Below are positions 7,576 to 42,226 of a stretch of DNA of 64,000 nt, piece after piece. The notes under the pieces were generated by a model. That model did no database searches. It was not told where the DNA came from and saw nothing but the letters and a program-made list of their open reading frames with translations. A program made the position numbers and the translations under genes. Positions within the stretch are counted from its first letter, which is position 1, and the number at the start of each line of letters is the position of its first letter. The stretch lies in the NCBI RefSeq assembly GCF_013387455.1, contig NZ_VWNC01000007.1:62001-126000 (forward strand), written 5' to 3'. Source of the DNA: Mariprofundus sp. NF (lineage in GTDB: Bacteria; Pseudomonadota; Zetaproteobacteria; Mariprofundales; Mariprofundaceae).

Positions 7576-10500
7576 ATGAATAGAACCCTTCTCCTACAAC
7601 AGCAGATGAAAAAACAGATCCTTATCCTGGACGGTGCCATGGGCACCATGATCCAGTCATATGGATTGGACGAGGCCGATTATCGCGGTGAACGCTTTGC
7701 CGACTGGCCTAGCGAGCTGAAAGGCAATAACGACCTGCTGTCGCTAACGCAACCGCATATCATCAGGGAAATTCATACGAAATACCTGGAAGCCGGTTCT
7801 GATATTCTGGAGACCAACACCTTTAACGCCAATGCCGCATCAATGGCCGACTACGGCATGGAAGCTCTGGTTTACGAACTGAATGTTGCCGGAGCCAAGG
7901 CTGCAAAAGAGGCTTGTAACGCCATTGCAACGCCAGAGAAACCACGTTTTGTTGCAGGAGTCCTCGGCCCCACATCTCGAACCTGCTCGATCTCGCCTGA
8001 TGTCAATGATCCGGGTTACCGCAATGTCACCTTTGATGAGCTGGTAGAGACCTACACCGATGCCACACGTGGCCTGATCGATGGTGGTGCTGATATCCTG
8101 CTGATTGAGACGGTGTTTGACACACTCAATGCCAAAGCGGCCGTGTTTGCCGTAAAGAAATATTTCGAAGATGCCGGTGTAGAGCTGCCGATCATGATCT
8201 CCGGCACCATTACCGACGCCTCGGGCCGCACCCTCTCCGGCCAGACAGCCACCGCCTTCTACAACTCGCTGGCTCACGCCAATCCGATCTCGATCGGTCT
8301 GAACTGTGCCCTGGGTGCCGGTGAGTTGCGCCAGTATGTTGAAGAGCTCTCCAACACCGTATCCTGTGGCATTAATGCCCATCCCAATGCCGGGCTGCCC
8401 AATGCGATGGGTGGTTATGATGAGACAGCTGAAGAGATGGCTGCCGAGATCAGGGAGTGGGCCGAGTCCGGATTCCTCAATGTGATTGGTGGCTGCTGTG
8501 GTACCGGCCCTGACCATATCCGCGCCATGGCCAAAGCTGTGGCTGGCATTGCCCCCCGCCCTGCCCCCCAGCGCGAAACCTTCTGCCGTCTCTCCGGTCT
8601 TGAGCCGCTGCATATCGACAGGAACTCCCTGTTTGTGAATGTTGGTGAGCGTGCCAATGTCACCGGTTCGGCCATGTTCAAACGGTTGATTCTTGAAGGT
8701 CAGTTTGAGAAGGCACTGGATGTCTGCAGGGATCAGGTGGAGAACGGTGCCCAGATCATCGATATCAATATGGATGAGGCGATGCTTGATGGTAAAGCCG
8801 CGATGGTCACCTTCCTTAACCTGATCGCCTCTGAACCGGATATCTCGCGTGTACCGGTGATGATCGATTCATCCAAATGGGAGATTATCGAAGCAGGCCT
8901 GAAATGCATTCAGGGCAAGGGCGTGGTCAACTCGATCTCCATGAAAGAGGGTAAAGAGGCGTTTGTACATCATGCCAAACTGCTGGCCAAGTATGGTGCT
9001 GCAGTGGTGGTGATGGCCTTTGATGAAGAGGGTCAGGCCGACACTTTTAAACGCAAAATCGAGATCTGTGAGAACTCCTACCGTATTCTCGTTGATGAGT
9101 GCGGCTTCCCGCCAGAAGATATTATCTTTGACCCCAACATCTTCGCTATCGCCACCGGCATTGAAGAGCACAACAACTACGCCGTTGATTTCATCGAAGC
9201 GACCGGCTGGATCAAGCAGAATCTGCCACACGCGATGATCTCCGGCGGTGTCTCCAACGTCTCCTTCTCCTTCCGTGGCAACAATCCGGTACGAGAAGCG
9301 ATCCACTCTGTATTCCTCTACCACGCCATCAAACAGGGCATGGATATGGGCATTGTGAATGCAGGCATGCTCGAGGTGTATGAAGAACTTCCGAAAGAGC
9401 TCAGAGATGCCGTAGAGGATGTGGTACTCAACCGTAACCCCGATGCCACCGATCACCTGCTCTCGATTGCCGATAACTATCGCGGTGATGGTACCATTGC
9501 CAAAAAGGCTGATGAGGAGTGGCGCAAGCTGCCGGTGGCCAAGCGCCTTGAGCATGCGCTGGTTAAAGGCATTGATGCATACGTTGATGAAGATACCGAA
9601 GAGGCACGCCTTGCCTTTGATCGCCCGATTGAGGTGATTGAGGGGCCATTGATGGATGGCATGAATGTGGTTGGAGACCTCTTCGGTGATGGCAAAATGT
9701 TCCTGCCGCAGGTGGTGAAATCGGCCCGAGTCATGAAAAAAGCCGTGGCCTGGCTGATGCCGCACATTGAAGCGGAGAAAGCTGAGGGTGTATCCTCCTC
9801 CAACGGTAAAATTCTGATGGCTACCGTGAAGGGTGATGTGCACGATATCGGTAAAAATATTGTCGGTGTGGTGCTGCAGTGCAACAACTTCGAAGTGATC
9901 GATATCGGGGTGATGGTACCTGCCGCCAGAATTCTCGAAGAGGCCAAAAAACATGATGTCGACATCATCGGCCTCTCTGGTCTGATTACCCCCTCCCTTG
10001 ATGAGATGGTGCATCTGGCCAAAGAGATGAAACGGTTAGGTTTCAACAAACCGATCATGCTTGGTGGTGCAACCACCTCCAAGGCCCATACAGCCGTGAA
10101 GATCATGCCGGAGTACGATGAGCCGGCTGTCTGGGTGAAAGACGCCTCACGCGCCGTTGGCGTAGCCCAGAATCTTATTTCAGATGCCTACCGCGCCGAC
10201 TTTGTAAGTAAGCTGCGCACAGAGTATGAGGGTGTACGTGATCGATATCTGGGTCGTCAGAGCCAGACCGACTGGCTCTCACTTGCTGATGCCCGTGCTA
10301 ATCCTGTCGTGCTGAAGCAAGAGAGCATTGCAGCTGCCCCGGCCACTCCCGGTGTGCAGGTGCTGGATAATATCGATATCGCTGAAATTCGTGCTTATAT
10401 CGACTGGAGCCCTTTCTTCTCGGCATGGGAGCTTAATGGTGCCTACCCGCGCATCCTTAATGATCCGCACAAAGGCAAAGAGGCGCAAAAACTGTTTAAT

Positions 10501-34244: not shown

Positions 34245-35612
34245 ATGATATTACCGATGGGAAACACTGCTAAAGAGTCAGGCGAGATAGAGCGTCTGTT
34301 TTCGAATCGTTTTGCATCAGAAACAGGCAGTGAAAAGAAGGTTCTGTTACAGGGTATAAAAGGCTCACTGGTGCTCTCCATCATACGATCTGCACTGCAA
34401 AATGGATGGACAGTCGCAATCATTCGAGAAGATGCAAGCAACGACTATCTGCAACATGCTCAATCAGAGTTGGGCTCACACTTACATGTCGTTGCTCATC
34501 AGGATTACGATGCTCCGCTTGTCTATGCTGGCCCGGATTGCAAACCACTGGATCTCTGGCTATCTGAAAATAGATCTGCCTCATCAGCTCGCCCCTATGC
34601 ATGGCGGGAGGATGAATGTGCGCTTATTCTCTTCACCTCCGGTTCAACAGGCATGCCCAAGGGCGTTTGTCATTCACTGGGAAATATCATTCGTTCAGCA
34701 GAGCTGTTTAGTGAACATTTTGAGATCGACAGTAGCGACCACCTCTATTGTCTGGCGCCTATCCACAGCATGTCAGGATTACGTAGTCTGCTTCTCCCCC
34801 TGGTTTCAGAAGCAGCGGTTACGATAGCTGACAATCACTCAGCACCCTTTCTATCGATCATCAAAGAGATACCCCAACTAAAGCCGACAAAAATTGTTTG
34901 CGGGCCCGTTTTCATCAAACAACTCGCCGCTTATGGCAAACGCATTATTGAACATATTCAAAGTGTAGAGGCCCTGCTTTGTACCGGCGCTGACCTTGAC
35001 GAGGCAGATCGCGCAACAGTAATGCAGGTGTTCGGAGTCCCGGTCGTGAATTATTACGGCTTAACAGAAACAGCTGGTATCGTACTGGCTGAAACAATCG
35101 CTAAGCAGACTGAAAATTGTCTCCCTCCCCCATGTGAAGGTTGCCAAATAGTGTTAACAACCGTTGAGGACTCCAGTCAACTGTTTCAACTGGGCATTAC
35201 AGGCCCAAACATGTTCCTGGGTTATTTGGGGGAACCACTACTTCGCACCTCATCATTTGATACCGGCGACCTGGTTCAAAAAACAGCGCATGAACAGCTC
35301 CGATTAGTGGGGCGATCTTCCGGGGCAGTAAAGGCGCCAACTACTGAGTGGATTTTTCCGAGCTTGCTAGAAGGCTGGTTAAAGAGTCAGGCCAACATAG
35401 ATGATGCCGTTGTCAAAGGATGCAGAATTTCAGGGGGATATGGTGTGGAGATATGGGTAGAGTGTTCTATGCCATTTGATTACTCAGCAATGGATAAATC
35501 GATTGTTCAACAGTTTGGCATTGAATACATGCCTGCCAAATGGCATAACGCAGTTATAAAACGAAATCCACTTGGCAAGGTTGACCAGATCATTGAAAAA
35601 ACAGGCTTTTAA
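34245..35612 (+). CDS. AMP-dependent ligase (adenylating enzyme) 1
   Basis: A 455-residue ANL-superfamily enzyme that activates a carboxylic acid as acyl-AMP. The core motifs are LFTSGSTGMPKGV (about residues 128-140), NYYGLTETAG, FDTGDLV and GR, with the C-terminal lysine in NPLGKVDQ, so it looks active. It is shorter than DltA (about 500 residues), with a compact N-terminal domain. The substrate cannot be read from sequence. It opens an operon resembling dltABCD in which a second ligase carries its own carrier domain. Base composition from here on is AT-richer than in flanking genes. Confidence 0.88.
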   Translation: MILPMGNTAKESGEIERLFSNRFASETGSEKKVLLQGIKGSLVLSIIRSALQNGWTVAIIREDASNDYLQHAQSELGSHLHVVAHQDYDAPLVYAGPDCKPLDLWLSENRSASSARPYAWREDECALILFTSGSTGMPKGVCHSLGNIIRSAELFSEHFEIDSSDHLYCLAPIHSMSGLRSLLLPLVSEAAVTIADNHSAPFLSIIKEIPQLKPTKIVCGPVFIKQLAAYGKRIIEHIQSVEALLCTGADLDEADRATVMQVFGVPVVNYYGLTETAGIVLAETIAKQTENCLPPPCEGCQIVLTTVEDSSQLFQLGITGPNMFLGYLGEPLLRTSSFDTGDLVQKTAHEQLRLVGRSSGAVKAPTTEWIFPSLLEGWLKSQANIDDAVVKGCRISGGYGVEIWVECSMPFDYSAMDKSIVQQFGIEYMPAKWHNAVIKRNPLGKVDQIIEKTGF

Positions 35613-35618
35613 TAAAGT

Positions 35619-37454
35619 ATGACAACCCAAAAGAAAAATTATACTGGTGCGCTTTATCGGGACATCAAGGTGCGTGCAAAAAATAACACTCTGTTTGCCG
35701 ATTTTAATGATGAAAAACTAACATATCGCCAGCTCTTGAATTCTGTGCAAAAGCTAACCTCCTTTTTCAGAACGCATGAACTTAAACAGGACTCACGAAT
35801 CATCATTGTGACCAAGCATGATAAGCATGCCATCACAATACTCACCGCAGCTTTGTTGGAAGGCTTTTCACCCATACTTCTATCCGTAGAAGCCAAATCG
35901 AAGCGTCTGCAAGCCATTGCGGAAAAAGTCTCGCCACAAATGATTTTTGTTGATGATGAGTTACAGCCAGCGTTACCCTGGTTGGCTGAATTCCTGTCTG
36001 TGAGCATATTGGAGGAGAGTAATCGATCTCTGTTTGCCCAGTTATTCGGGAAGAAAAACAGATCAGTTGAGTGTTATCCGAGCCTACTGACTGATTACGG
36101 CATAAGTGAACCGGCCTGCGCAGCCCGGGCGGATGATATTGCATTTATATCCTTCACCTCAGGAACAACATCCGAACCAAAGGGTATTCTCACAACACAT
36201 GCCAATTTATTTGAGCATTTAGAAACGCTTACACGCGTATTTGGCTACACAGAGCAATCCCGCATCTTCAATAATTTATCCCTGGCACATAACGATGGCT
36301 TCGTTCAGGGGCCATTGCTGGCACTGTTTTCCGGCGCCCTGCTGTATCGCCCCCCAGCATTTACGATCCAAAATCTGGAAGAGCGACTCAATAGCTTATT
36401 CAGCAAACGCATCACCCATTTCATCACAGTCCCTACAATACTTTCGCTGATAGATCGACTGACTTCCAATAATGACTATTTTGAAGGTGAAGATTTCCGT
36501 TGTTTGATCTCTGTGGCGGCCAAACTTGATGCAAATCTTTGGGAGAGGTCGCAGCAACGATTTGGCATCAATATATGCAATATTTACGGCCTGTCGGAAA
36601 CCGTTGCCGGAGGGCTGTTTTGTGGCCCGGATAAAGATTCGTTTGCCTTAGGTACAGTAGGTAAACCTGTTGATATGGATATTAGAATTGTCGATGAGAA
36701 AGGCTGTGATTGTTCGGTGAATGAAGAGGGTGAACTCTGGCTGAAAGGGGAAAATGTAACGCCTGGTTATCTGGATGACCCCATTGCTACAACATCACTG
36801 TTTTTCAACGACTGGTTATGTACAGGAGACATGGCTCGACAAAACCCGGAAGGCTTTATCGAAATTGTTGGTAGAAAAAAAGCAATTATTATGAGTGGTG
36901 GTTTTAATATACATCCTGATGAAATCAATGAAGTTTTGATGTCTCACCCACAAGTAGCTGATTCAGCAACCGTGGGAATAGCAGATCAGGATTGGGGTGA
37001 GCTGGTTGTGAGCGTTGTGGAATCAGATGATGATTTGGATGAAGCGAATCTTATCGATCATTGTCGTCATTTTCTTGAACCCATTAAGGTTCCAAAAACT
37101 ATTGTCACTACAAACAGGTTGCCTAGAGGGGTTTCAGGGAAAGTGTTGTTATCTGAAATCCGTGATTTGATTACTGATACAATTCATAAATCGGACAGAA
37201 ACAACACAACTATTCCACACAGTGATATTGTTGGCTTAGCAGCTTCAGTTTTCAACGCTTCAGAAAAAAAATTATCTTTGAATAGCTCGTCAGATCAAAC
37301 CCCGGGTTGGGATTCATTAGGGCATCTGAATCTCATCACCGCCACAGAGCAGAGATATGATATTCAGTTTAGCATGGATGAAATGATGCGTGTTGATTCT
37401 TTACAGTGCTTGCTTGAAATGGTTCAGAATAAGCTAAAATGTGATGAATCATAA
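35619..37454 (+). CDS. AMP-ligase 2 fused to an acyl/peptidyl carrier domain
   Basis: A 611-residue fusion. Residues 1 to about 520 are an adenylation domain with SFTSGTTSEPKGI, NIYGLSETVAGG, CTGDMARQNPEG, GRKKAIIMSGGFNIHP and the catalytic Lys in LPRGVSGKVL. Residues about 530-605 are a phosphopantetheine carrier with the attachment serine Ser566 in GWDSLGHLNL. In Dlt terms this unites DltA and DltC: the acid is adenylated, thioesterified to the carrier and presented to the MBOAT protein. Its end overlaps the start of the SGNH gene (11 bases from the ATG). Confidence 0.9.
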   Translation: MTTQKKNYTGALYRDIKVRAKNNTLFADFNDEKLTYRQLLNSVQKLTSFFRTHELKQDSRIIIVTKHDKHAITILTAALLEGFSPILLSVEAKSKRLQAIAEKVSPQMIFVDDELQPALPWLAEFLSVSILEESNRSLFAQLFGKKNRSVECYPSLLTDYGISEPACAARADDIAFISFTSGTTSEPKGILTTHANLFEHLETLTRVFGYTEQSRIFNNLSLAHNDGFVQGPLLALFSGALLYRPPAFTIQNLEERLNSLFSKRITHFITVPTILSLIDRLTSNNDYFEGEDFRCLISVAAKLDANLWERSQQRFGINICNIYGLSETVAGGLFCGPDKDSFALGTVGKPVDMDIRIVDEKGCDCSVNEEGELWLKGENVTPGYLDDPIATTSLFFNDWLCTGDMARQNPEGFIEIVGRKKAIIMSGGFNIHPDEINEVLMSHPQVADSATVGIADQDWGELVVSVVESDDDLDEANLIDHCRHFLEPIKVPKTIVTTNRLPRGVSGKVLLSEIRDLITDTIHKSDRNNTTIPHSDIVGLAASVFNASEKKLSLNSSSDQTPGWDSLGHLNLITATEQRYDIQFSMDEMMRVDSLQCLLEMVQNKLKCDES

Positions 37455-38337
37455 ACCAGTATCCAAAGTACCAGTCAGTCTCTGGCTTGCCACATTAAGC
37501 GGATTGCTATTTGTTATAATGATTTCTGACTATTTTCATCAAAACTATAAACCTCCTGCCGCATATGATCGTTTGTTGATGAGTTTTGTACCTGAACGAT
37601 TGAAAAGAATTCAAAATCATGGCCTGATTGTAATTGGAACATCTATGGTGAGTTGTGGATTTCCATATGATGAAAAGTTCGAATCATTAGCAGCCAAAAA
37701 AAATATGAAAATTGAATTTGTTCGTTTTTCACGCAATGCAGGTAGACCTAGTGATTTTGAATCCATCAGTGAGGCTGTTTTAAAGTCTAAACCACGTTGG
37801 ATCTTTCTACAGGCAGAACCATTTTTTTTAGAGTTAAGCAATCATAAATCTTTTTTTCATGAGCACTTCGATAGTATCCGTAATAATGTGCGTTTTATGC
37901 TTGAGCAAATCCTCATTAGAACTAAATTAATTATTCTATTCCCATTATATCAGGATGATCGCTCTTTAAAGCTTGAAGAGGTTGCTACAATAGACGAGAT
38001 CAAAAACGCAGAAGTTTCATATCAAATCAAACCACCTGTTTCCCCAAAGTATTTTGAATCTTTCCTTAAGCATGCCAAAGAAAATAATATCAAGGTCATC
38101 TTATTGGAAATGAATCGTTCAAAAGAAGGTAATGAGTACTTTGGAGATCGGTTCAGGGCTCAGTTAAACAGAACATTACAGCAAGTTTCAGAGTTTTATC
38201 AAATACCCCTATGGCAATTTAGAAGTGATCTCCCATTAGAGTATTATTCGGATCGTGCTCACTTGAATCGTAAAGGTCGTGCTGTTTTCAGTGACTGGTT
38301 TTTATCAAAGTTAGCGCAAGAAAACCATCATGACTGA
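37444..38337 (+). CDS. DltD-like SGNH-family membrane-anchored protein
   Basis: A 297-residue protein with an N-terminal membrane anchor (about residues 12-29) and a periplasmic SGNH-hydrolase-like domain. The nucleophile motif is IGTSMVSCG (Ser67) and the C-terminal DxxH is YYSDRAHLNRKG (Asp270, His273), as in DltD and AlgJ/AlgX-type proteins. It likely transfers or edits acyl groups on the envelope acceptor. The start is taken as ATG 37444, and the GTG three bases earlier is also possible. It overlaps both neighbours (carrier-ligase and MBOAT) and is notably AT-rich. Confidence 0.82.
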   Translation: MNHKPVSKVPVSLWLATLSGLLFVIMISDYFHQNYKPPAAYDRLLMSFVPERLKRIQNHGLIVIGTSMVSCGFPYDEKFESLAAKKNMKIEFVRFSRNAGRPSDFESISEAVLKSKPRWIFLQAEPFFLELSNHKSFFHEHFDSIRNNVRFMLEQILIRTKLIILFPLYQDDRSLKLEEVATIDEIKNAEVSYQIKPPVSPKYFESFLKHAKENNIKVILLEMNRSKEGNEYFGDRFRAQLNRTLQQVSEFYQIPLWQFRSDLPLEYYSDRAHLNRKGRAVFSDWFLSKLAQENHHD

Positions 38338-39439
38338 CTTCCAAGCGGTCTATTTTGTTTGGATGGTTGCCACAGTTATTGTGACCTGGATATCACCTAG
38401 GCAGTGGCAGGTTGATGTTGTTGCCATAAGTACAGTGATTTTTGTGGCAATCTATTCTCCCTGGTCCTGTTTTTGGCTGATATCGGCATCATTATTGACT
38501 TACTTATGCATCTGCATTTCACCCACTAAAAAACCGGCCTTGATCGGGGTATCAATCATTCTGATCGCTGTTGTTTTCCTTGTTTACAAGTGGCTGTCAC
38601 CTGGCGCGGACAATACCGGGGCAATATTGCCAGTGATGCTTGGCCTCTCATATTATACATGTCGTCACATTCATATTTTGATGGAAGTCTATAAAGGCAA
38701 CATTCAAACCATGAGTTTGCGCCGCTACTTTCACTATCAGCTCTTTCTACCGGTATTGGTTGTAGGCCCTATCCACCGCTATCAGAACTTTCAAAGGCAG
38801 TGCGAACGACGGCGTTGGGATTCGGTCAACCTTACGACTGGTTTTGAGCGCATTTTATATGGTTATGCCAAGGTTGTTGTACTTGGAAATTGGCTGCTTA
38901 ATCACAAATTAGGCGGTATTCTGGAGCAGTATGCTGGTGATGGCTTCTGGGGTATATTTATCATCTCTGCCAAGGACTGGCTCTATCTCTATATTGAATT
39001 TAGCGGCTATATTGATGTTGCATTGGGTTTTTCACTGTTATTGGGTTTTCATATCGAAGAGAACTTTAACCACCCTTTAAAAGCACGCAATTTGATTGAT
39101 TTCTGGCAACGCTGGCACATCACCCTCTCCAGCTGGTGTAAAGATTATGTATTCAGTCCGGTTCAGGCTAAAACACGTAACCAACTACTGGCCGTGTTTG
39201 CTGCTATGACAGTGATGGGACTGTGGCATGAACTATCGTTATATTATTTCTTATGGGGTTTTTATCATGCCACTGGTATCGCTTTGTGTCGCCTCTACCA
39301 GCTAAATGATGATCCGCTACGGCTTTCCATGCTGCCAGCTGTCTTGCAAAACGCGATAACCAGAACAGCAACTTTTACCTGGCTTGTTGCAGGTATGCCT
39401 GTCATTACTTCGATTCTGTCATTTGCCGGTTTAGGGTGA
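38330..39439 (+). CDS. MBOAT-family membrane O-acyltransferase (DltB-like)
   Basis: A 369-residue polytopic inner-membrane protein (about nine or ten helices). It has the MBOAT signature histidines: His263 in FWQRWHITLSSW and the invariant catalytic His300 in MGLWHELSLYYFLWG. It also has VVGPIHRYQNF and the YIEFSGYIDVALGFSLLLG segment seen in DltB/AlgI. In Dlt systems this protein passes the acyl group from the carrier across the membrane. The ATG overlaps the end of the SGNH gene by eight bases, and a 48-codon gene follows after four bases. Confidence 0.93.
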   Translation: MTDFQAVYFVWMVATVIVTWISPRQWQVDVVAISTVIFVAIYSPWSCFWLISASLLTYLCICISPTKKPALIGVSIILIAVVFLVYKWLSPGADNTGAILPVMLGLSYYTCRHIHILMEVYKGNIQTMSLRRYFHYQLFLPVLVVGPIHRYQNFQRQCERRRWDSVNLTTGFERILYGYAKVVVLGNWLLNHKLGGILEQYAGDGFWGIFIISAKDWLYLYIEFSGYIDVALGFSLLLGFHIEENFNHPLKARNLIDFWQRWHITLSSWCKDYVFSPVQAKTRNQLLAVFAAMTVMGLWHELSLYYFLWGFYHATGIALCRLYQLNDDPLRLSMLPAVLQNAITRTATFTWLVAGMPVITSILSFAGLG

Positions 39440-39443
39440 TGTG

Positions 39444-39590
39444 ATGAGTAAAACTTATCTATTTCTTTTAACGTGGTTGCCCGACCCTCTTGCAAGGTTG
39501 GCATTGGTAATCTGGTACATATTATTGATGTTAGCCATTATTGATCGCAGCACAGTGCCGTTTGATGGATTCATCTACTGGGATAATTAA
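39444..39590 (+). CDS. DltX-like 48-residue membrane microprotein
   Basis: A short gene four bases after the MBOAT stop, with agggtgatg as ribosome-binding site. The product has a short N-terminus, one membrane helix (about residues 17-34) and ends PFDGFIYWDN. This closely resembles DltX of Gram-positive D-alanylation operons, a roughly 50-residue single-helix peptide. DltX's C-terminal FIYxx(E/D)-type motif carries the tyrosine that relays the acyl group with DltB. Here Tyr45 would be the acceptor. It is too short for standard gene cut-offs and probably unannotated. Position, length, helix and C-terminal motif all agree. Confidence 0.85.
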   Translation: MSKTYLFLLTWLPDPLARLALVIWYILLMLAIIDRSTVPFDGFIYWDN

Positions 39591-39613: not shown

Positions 39614-40567
39614 ATGGATTTCATCACATGGGCCAAAGGTCGCACGCTGCCAAAAGCACTCCAATCAAGAGAAGGTTGGGCTCAATTTTTTGAGCATTAT
39701 CGAACAGAAGAGCCGCATATTCACCAGATTGAGCCAACCAACCGTTGTCCTTATACCTGTGTGATGTGCCCCAGAAATGACAACATGACAAGAAAACAGG
39801 GTAACATGGAGATGGGGCTGTTCAGAAAAATTATTGATGAAGCTTCCACCTACTCAGAAAAAGTCCGTGAGAAGGAGATTGAACTTTTTCACTTTGGCGA
39901 ATCACTGTTTCATCCACAACTTGCAGAGATGGTCGCTTACAGTTCATCAGCCGGACTTAGACCCACGCTTTCTATAAACCCTGCAGACCTCAATTCCGGA
40001 ATGATCGATGACCTTCTCAAAAGCGCGCCTTATAAAATAATAATATCTCTGGATAGCATGACCGATAAAAGGTACCGGGCGATCAGAGGAGAACATGCCG
40101 AAATCGACCGGGCCGTAGAAAACACAGAACTACTGCTGCAGCGGCATCAGCAGTTGGAGAGTAATACAATCATCAGCATCAGAATGATTGTCATGAATCT
40201 GAATGAAGATGAGGTTGAGGATTTCCGCAATTTCTGGCAAGAGCGAGGTGGAGTTGTAGAGTTAAGAGATTTTTTTCCCTGGAGCAAAAACGAGCTTCAA
40301 GAGCTTGGCAGAGTAGAAAAATATCCGGCCTACATGCCCTGCCCTTTCCCCTGGCAATATCTTGTCGCCCAATGGAATGGCGATGTGGTTGCATGTTGCC
40401 GTGATTATAACGGCCTGTTGAAGCTTGGAAATGTCGCTGATTCTACGCTGAAAGAGATATGGAATGGCCCGGCTTACACTGAGTTCCGGAGAAAAATGGC
40501 CTCTGGTCGCGGCCTCACCAGTTTTTGTGAGGAGTGTCTCAGCATATACTATTCTGAGCCCACATAG
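39614..40567 (+). CDS. Radical SAM/SPASM enzyme
   Basis: A 317-residue radical SAM protein with the [4Fe-4S] ligands Cys45, Cys49 and Cys52 (NRCPYTCVMC). A C-terminal SPASM-type cysteine cluster follows (MPCPFPW, VACCRDYNG, FCEECLS). It has HFGESLFHPQ, LSINPADL and a GNVADSTLKEIWNGP motif typical of SPASM proteins. It lies 23 bp after the DltX-like gene on the same strand and is probably part of the operon. It might produce or modify the acyl group or the acceptor. The reaction is not known. Confidence 0.9.
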   Translation: MDFITWAKGRTLPKALQSREGWAQFFEHYRTEEPHIHQIEPTNRCPYTCVMCPRNDNMTRKQGNMEMGLFRKIIDEASTYSEKVREKEIELFHFGESLFHPQLAEMVAYSSSAGLRPTLSINPADLNSGMIDDLLKSAPYKIIISLDSMTDKRYRAIRGEHAEIDRAVENTELLLQRHQQLESNTIISIRMIVMNLNEDEVEDFRNFWQERGGVVELRDFFPWSKNELQELGRVEKYPAYMPCPFPWQYLVAQWNGDVVACCRDYNGLLKLGNVADSTLKEIWNGPAYTEFRRKMASGRGLTSFCEECLSIYYSEPT

Positions 40568-41128: not shown

Positions 41129-42226
41129 CTACTTCGACGACAGCGCAGCCCTGACACCTTTGTGAACAATCTTTCCATCTCTGATATTAACGCCCAGCTT
41201 AATTGCCGGATCTTCTTTTATGGCTGCATCTAAGCCCAGATCGGCGATTTTCTGAATATAGGGCAGTGTGGCATGGGTTAGCGCTGCGGTGCTGCTCTGA
41301 GGCACAGCCGATGGCAGATTGGGCAGACAGCAGTGAATGACCCCCTCCTCCAGATAGACCGGTTCAGCAAAGCTGGTAGCGCGACTTGTTTCACTCATAC
41401 CACCCTGATCAATCGCTACATCCACAAACACACAGCCCTGTTTCATGCGGGCTATATCTGAGCGTTTGAGCAGCATCGGGGCATGTTTACCCGGAATCAG
41501 GGCTGCACCGATCAGTATGTCGCAATCAGGTAGCAGCTTGAGAAGATTGGCATGGGTGTAGTGTACGACTTGAATATTCTCATGCGTCTGATGCTGCAGC
41601 TGATCAATTCTCCGATCATCAGCTTCCAGAAGCATCACCGCTGCACCCAGAGGTGCAACAACCTCTGCAGCACTGATCCCGACATTACCGGCCCCGAGAA
41701 TCACTACTTTTGCAGCGGGCTGTGCGCCCATCGGACCAACCAGACGTCCCATTCCCGTAATGCCTGTACCGCTCTCCTTCTGCAGATATTGCACTGCCAG
41801 TTGGGCAGCAACCTTGCCTGCCACCTGACTCATCGGTGCTAACAGCGGCAGCTGACCCGAATCCAGTTGCACTGTCTCATAACCGATCGCGCAAACTCCC
41901 GCACTCTGCAGTGAGCTGGCCAATTCTGGTACGGCGGCAAGATGCAGATAGGTAAAGAGCATCAGCTCGGGCCTGAAATAGCAGTACTCTGAAGCCAGCG
42001 GCTCTTTCACCTTTACCACCAGCTCACAACACCAGACCTCTTCTGCGGCTGTTACAACCGTTGCCCCCGCATCGATATAGCTCTGATCAGAAAAAGAGCT
42101 GTCAGCACCTGCTGCAACCTCTACAACCAGCGCATGACCGGCAGCAACCAGAGCTTTCACCCCATCCGGCGTGACTGACACTCGGTGCTCACGATTCTTG
42201 ATCTCTTTGGGAATACCAATGCGCAT
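41129..42226 (-). CDS. ald: Alanine dehydrogenase
   Basis: Reversible NAD-dependent deamination of alanine to pyruvate. The 365 residues are close to the family's 371. Features are MRIGIPKEIKNREHRVSVTP at the N-terminus, ELVVKVKEPL (substrate Lys), LFTYLHLAA (catalytic His), the NAD motif VILGAGNVGISAAEV and DVAIDQGGM. It is convergent with the Roadblock F gene, 36 bp away. If the nearby Dlt-like ligases use alanine, this could affect its supply, but Ald makes or uses the L-isomer and no racemase is present here. Confidence 0.95.
   Translation of the reverse strand: MRIGIPKEIKNREHRVSVTPDGVKALVAAGHALVVEVAAGADSSFSDQSYIDAGATVVTAAEEVWCCELVVKVKEPLASEYCYFRPELMLFTYLHLAAVPELASSLQSAGVCAIGYETVQLDSGQLPLLAPMSQVAGKVAAQLAVQYLQKESGTGITGMGRLVGPMGAQPAAKVVILGAGNVGISAAEVVAPLGAAVMLLEADDRRIDQLQHQTHENIQVVHYTHANLLKLLPDCDILIGAALIPGKHAPMLLKRSDIARMKQGCVFVDVAIDQGGMSETSRATSFAEPVYLEEGVIHCCLPNLPSAVPQSSTAALTHATLPYIQKIADLGLDAAIKEDPAIKLGVNIRDGKIVHKGVRAALSSK

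Follow-up and report, generated by a model that had tools for sequence, protein, structure and literature searches.

A 64,000-nucleotide stretch of the Mariprofundus sp. NF genome (contig NZ_VWNC01000007.1, positions 62,001 to 126,000), referred to here as the window, encodes a 48-residue membrane microprotein directly downstream of a membrane-bound O-acyltransferase (MBOAT) gene. Taken together, the analyses make it highly likely that a DltB-like MBOAT/SGNH acyltransferase of the envelope has this microprotein as its acyl-shuttle subunit, encoded by a gene of its own. In DltX and in the fused C-terminus of PatA, the acyl group is carried on the tyrosine of a terminal FxYxxF motif from the MBOAT to the SGNH protein (PMC12148441). 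The microprotein frame occupies positions 39444-39590 of the forward strand, comprises 48 codons followed by TAA, and encodes MSKTYLFLLTWLPDPLARLALVIWYILLMLAIIDRSTVPFDGFIYWDN. The MBOAT stop codon is located at 39437-39439 and the microprotein ATG four bases downstream, which confirms the placement given in a preliminary description of this DNA. The ribosome-binding site proposed there was also found, as a possible Shine-Dalgarno sequence AGGG at 39433-39436 (+), within the 3' end of the MBOAT gene and seven bases before the ATG, although the match is modest. A GTG at 39441, listed as an alternative start, appears less likely because the frames of the relatives align from the ATG, mostly with M-[ST]-K/R. 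Promoter and terminator scans returned signals no better than the shuffled level. The AlphaFold model of the microprotein alone (predicted local distance difference test score, pLDDT, 79.6) has helices at residues 3-11 and 14-37, with the C-terminal tail loose, in line with the hydrophobic helix described earlier. The C-terminal hexapeptide reads FIYWDN, again as described; compared with FxYxxF, FIY is kept with the tyrosine fourth from the end and the terminal phenylalanine is missing.

The MBOAT was used as a query against 84,980 genomes, one per species; the query favours relatives of the window MBOAT, and the frequencies reported here are not population estimates. Five close relatives with 45-70% identity were identified in Thiomargarita (locus L032), Desulfopila (L033), a gammaproteobacterial metagenome-assembled genome (L034), Legionellales (L035) and Nitrospinaceae (L036). 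A microprotein homologue is present in all five; its start ranges from 4 bases upstream to 5 bases downstream of the point where the MBOAT stop codon ends. The sixth relative is encoded on the Sulfitobacter pontiacus plasmid NZ_CP049347 (L119), with 34% MBOAT identity. Its microprotein (9014-9175, +) lies in a 160-base stretch without a listed gene, in a record whose gene table is itself incomplete, and is adjoined by glycosyltransferases, which hint at a surface glycan as the target. Thus, the frame is absent from none of the six relatives, and in each of the seven loci it overlaps the MBOAT stop codon or comes right behind it. The residues M1, L8, P13, W24, Y25, I33 and Y45 are invariant in a six-row alignment, and Tyr45 is also kept in the seventh microprotein, that of Sulfitobacter, so that the tyrosine is conserved in 7/7 and neither refuting condition named in the preliminary description, loss of the frame or of the tyrosine, applies. 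It is fourth from the C-terminus in five of the seven, by a scripted count that takes in a second tyrosine in the Legionellales protein. All seven N-termini are positively charged (K/R), which fits the N-in/C-out topology predicted from charge. Between the window and Thiomargarita microproteins, third codon positions hold 21 of the 37 substitutions, and the nonsynonymous (dN) and synonymous (dS) rates are 0.156 and 1.98, the latter near saturation, giving a dN/dS of ~0.08. By this substitution pattern and its presence in all the relatives, the frame is a real gene under strong purifying selection. It is also easily overlooked. A profile of the microproteins searched against 349 genomes of the phylum recovered the window only, three further matches at E ~0.007 resembling noise, and the same profile matched no chain in the PDB.

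The partner MBOAT (38330-39439, +) is a 369-residue DltB-like acyltransferase with catalytic His300, which is invariant among the relatives, and it lacks a C-terminal FxYxxF tail. It scores 90.6 bits with PF03062 and 171 bits (E = 3.8e-50) with TIGR04091, the DltB equivalog model, below the cut-off of 375 for that class. The MBOAT structure predicted by AlphaFold (pLDDT 88) has DltB as its best fold match, with Z scores of 32.4 and 32.1, followed by PORCN with 29.1. The alignment with DltB chain 8jem_B (Z score of 32.4, root-mean-square deviation of 3.7 Å over 358 residues) runs to the last residue of the model. As modeled, the window MBOAT is DltB-shaped and has no extra shuttle helix. In 92 of the 97 long MBOATs among the loci collected here FxYxxF is exactly terminal, with the tyrosine fourth from the end; the window MBOAT and its relatives stop ~70 residues past the catalytic histidine without this motif. 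The MBOATs of the seven loci group into a single clade (support 100/99), separate from Gram-positive and enterobacterial DltB, in a tree with long branches and many open forks that leave the deeper placements uncertain. A second MBOAT of the same genome (L021; C7:42750-43778), 466 residues long, carries a fused FIYFDF tail, so that both architectures coexist in one genome.

The relation of the microprotein to the fused tails was assessed with hhalign: a profile built from the seven microproteins was compared with the C-terminal 60 residues of 96 fused MBOATs and with four true DltX sequences. Against the fused tails the alignment is in register, tyrosine included (P = 4e-5); none of 200 column shuffles matched as well, and neither did any of 200 in which the motif columns were kept and the rest shuffled. 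The match to DltX is weaker (P = 1.3e-3), with 0/200 full column shuffles and 2/200 shuffles of the C-terminal columns alone reaching it. The DltX family model PF12459, with which true DltX scores 72.6 bits, did not match the microprotein at E = 1, had no significant match in the whole genome, and gave nothing above cut-off in 249 genomes of the phylum. True DltX matched no PDB chain (E = 0.55 at best).

The window microprotein resembles DltX in its ~50 residues, single main transmembrane helix, predicted N-in/C-out orientation and FIY tyrosine fourth from the C-terminus, and in its partners, a DltB-fold MBOAT, an SGNH protein, a carrier domain and an AMP-forming ligase. It differs from DltX in its Gram-negative host and in gene order, the DltX gene preceding the MBOAT gene and the microprotein gene following it; the window operon also has two ligases, a carrier fused to one of them, and a radical S-adenosylmethionine (SAM) enzyme. 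Since there is neither a PF12459 match nor a terminal phenylalanine in the hexapeptide, the microprotein, which probably works like DltX, belongs to a different, unnamed family. Hence the DltX-like role put forward in the preliminary description is supported, whereas membership of the DltX family is not. The correspondence with PatA/AlgI-type MBOATs is that their fused FxYxxF tail aligns with the microprotein; these proteins are single chains of ~450 residues or more, whereas in the window the tail is a separate protein.

The genes upstream of the MBOAT, all on the forward strand, encode an AMP-forming ligase of 455 residues without a detected AMP-binding_C domain (34245-35612), another AMP-forming ligase with a C-terminal carrier-protein-like domain containing GWDSLGH (35619-37454), and an SGNH/GDSL-like transferase (37444-38337) that has a membrane helix at its N-terminus and in which block I GTS (GTSMV) and block V DxxH (DRAH) were read directly. 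AMP-ligase, carrier domain, MBOAT, SGNH protein and putative shuttle tyrosine are thus co-encoded as in a Dlt-like pathway. The genome encodes LptD, which marks the host as having an outer membrane of the Gram-negative type. Downstream of the microprotein lies a radical SAM/SPASM protein gene (39614-40567, +), which is shared with the Thiomargarita and Desulfopila loci and replaced by other genes in the remaining relatives. In L034 (1905-3656), L035 (7259-9055) and L036 (7261-8622) the microprotein is followed instead by a large protein of no clear Pfam family, whose N-terminal stretch resembles a zinc ribbon; the upstream part of L034 ends at the contig end, within the SGNH gene. An alanine dehydrogenase-like gene, identified from reading the sequence, is located near the operon on the opposite strand (41129-42226), probably by coincidence.

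In the proposed mechanism, the AMP-ligase would load a carboxylic or amino acid onto its fused carrier domain, and the MBOAT would take the acyl group from the carrier and, by means of His300, hand it on to Tyr45, on the periplasmic side of the microprotein. The acyl-tyrosine peptide would then donate to the SGNH serine, from which an ester would form on an envelope glycan. The proposed acyl-tyrosine relay is the same as that shown for PatA (PMC12148441), and the microprotein very probably supplies the shuttle that the window MBOAT lacks. What was computed here is the conservation of the microprotein, its adjacency to the MBOAT, its correspondence to the fused tails and the DltB fold of its partner; every chemical transfer is modeled on DltX and PatA. 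Several points weigh against this assignment. The hexapeptide ends in N, H, E or K, and in L in Sulfitobacter, with phenylalanine in none of the seven, and the Sulfitobacter protein extends seven residues beyond the tyrosine. For membrane helices of 48 residues a profile match by itself carries little weight, and the PP-binding match of the carrier domain scores under the Pfam gathering threshold, although the GWDS serine motif is present.

The loss of the terminal phenylalanine is also what could be expected if the microprotein were a subunit serving the structure or assembly of the MBOAT/SGNH complex, with a tyrosine that holds the tail in the MBOAT funnel and carries no acyl group. Conservation and adjacency are expected equally for such a subunit, and an earlier DltB paper proposed that DltX and DltD act in regulation (PMC11035591). 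However, the window MBOAT would otherwise be without a shuttle tyrosine, which nearly all its relatives carry at the same position, and the in-register match to the fused tails takes in that tyrosine. A purely structural role is, in our estimate, improbable.

The position of the microprotein immediately upstream of the SPASM gene, and a FIYWDN end rich in residues modified by such enzymes, are reminiscent of a precursor of a ribosomally synthesized and post-translationally modified peptide. However, only 3/7 loci have the radical SAM gene next in line, L034, L035, L036 and L119 having other genes there, whereas the MBOAT is adjacent in all, and the transmembrane helix with no leader/core layout does not fit a precursor; this explanation is strongly disfavoured and very unlikely. 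Programmed frameshifting that joins the microprotein to the MBOAT as its C-terminal part would account for a sequence equal to the fused tails and read a few bases downstream, but the window shows a relative frame of +1, as against +2 in all six relatives, each of which has its own ATG, mostly in a coupled ATGA arrangement, so this is hardly credible. That the frame is spurious, as the abundance of short frames (126 of at least 30 residues listed in 13 kb) and the lack of a match to any database family might suggest, is refuted by its retention across Pseudomonadota, Thermodesulfobacteriota and Nitrospinota and by substitutions that are mainly third-position and synonymous, and its probability is negligible.

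The acyl-shuttle assignment is accompanied by a wider pattern, in that a detached microprotein ending in FxYxxF was found at all other inspected motif-less MBOATs (Pelagibacteraceae, Enterobacteria-type dlt and four further lineages). The Enterobacteria-type operons (L127, L128, L130-L132), of the kind known from Dickeya and Pectobacterium and assigned to their hosts from the gene set (L127-L132), share with the window a Gram-negative setting and a detached single-helix microprotein near SGNH and short MBOAT genes. They differ in that the microprotein has 39-40 residues, ends in FEYQKF or FEYQQF and is encoded between the SGNH and MBOAT genes, and in that the MBOATs occupy a separate branch of the tree. 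Four of these DltB-like MBOATs (L127, L128, L130, L132) have asparagine at the catalytic histidine position (FCMGAWNGLE) and RFH for RWH, which is odd if they are active. A Gram-negative DltX of the same topology and without sequence similarity was mentioned in 2017 for the Dickeya/Pectobacterium operons (PMC5541007), a precedent for the Gram-negative equivalent considered in the preliminary description. The generalisation of the relay anticipated there had already been made by PatA with its fused motif (PMC12148441).

In Pelagibacteraceae, a 49-residue single-helix microprotein ending in FLYFNF or WIYTVF (L052 3477-3626, L056 3477-3626 and L046 3445-3594, all on the reverse strand) is encoded divergently from ligase, acyl carrier protein (ACP) and motif-less MBOAT genes, and is a candidate independent detached shuttle. 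These MBOATs fall inside the fused clade (starred branches), and detachment or fusion therefore happened more than once; the count of 4 changes on the tree is overstated, the row for L121 having been labelled fused by an accident of the regular expression on a DltB ending in DYVKF. A 50-residue frame ending in FIYVSF (L157 7227-7379, -) occurs in genome G012 of the window's genus, with a different short MBOAT (413 residues) and an SGNH protein, inside a glycosyltransferase cluster that shows no ligase or ACP nearby. Microproteins ending in FLYGRF (L158 8877-9044, +; genome G057), FRYAGF (L159 9687-9830, -; G105) and FEYRVF (L160 2591-2743, +; G370) adjoin SGNH genes near motif-less MBOATs. In a control run of this strict search on 72 loci with fused MBOATs (809 kb), 69 matches were obtained, all on the + strand, which, where frame starts were compared, are the MBOATs' own tails in long frames; the strict shuttle-motif search of the 64-kb window gave no matches. 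A pairing of detached shuttles with carrier donors and of fused ones with acyl-CoA was considered and rejected, since an ACP-like frame also occurs in 58 of the 72 fused-MBOAT loci, as sought within ~6 kb (loci L037-L111) with a homemade hidden Markov model at a lenient threshold in query-biased loci. It is also contradicted by L157, detached with neither ACP nor ligase seen. The Thiomargarita locus encodes, besides the shuttle homologue, a DUF5989 protein (L032 60-233, +; PF19451, 94.5 bits), a separate family of ~50 residues with one helix and the end APFIYTLF, a C-terminal layout as in acyl shuttles. By this layout DUF5989 may be another shuttle family; a literature search found no paper naming it.

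We favour, with some reserve, the generalisation that detached acyl-shuttle microproteins generally accompany short Gram-negative MBOATs beyond teichoic-acid D-alanylation and have mostly been missed through their size. The same measured confidence covers, jointly with that generalisation, the existence of several sequence-unrelated families, namely that of the window (FIYWDN-like), that of Pelagibacteraceae (FLYFNF/WIYTVF) and unnamed ones in Pseudomonadota (FIYVSF, FLYGRF, FRYAGF, FEYRVF). According to a 2025 paper, MBOAT/SGNH pathways other than Dlt have neither a DltX-like microprotein nor a carrier protein (PMC12148441). If its pathway is not Dlt, the window family contradicts this statement on microproteins, as do the detached microproteins at the other motif-less MBOATs; for carrier proteins, the ACP-like frames found close to many MBOATs are relevant. 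For annotation this gives a simple rule: wherever a bacterial MBOAT lacks a terminal FxYxxF, a small partner with this ending, or one close to it, is to be expected, and overlooking it would make reconstitution fail. The conservation pattern suggests that the needed part of the shuttle peptide is the tyrosine and not the full FxYxxF, and the variant ending of the window family provides a natural test of which shuttle-peptide residues matter.
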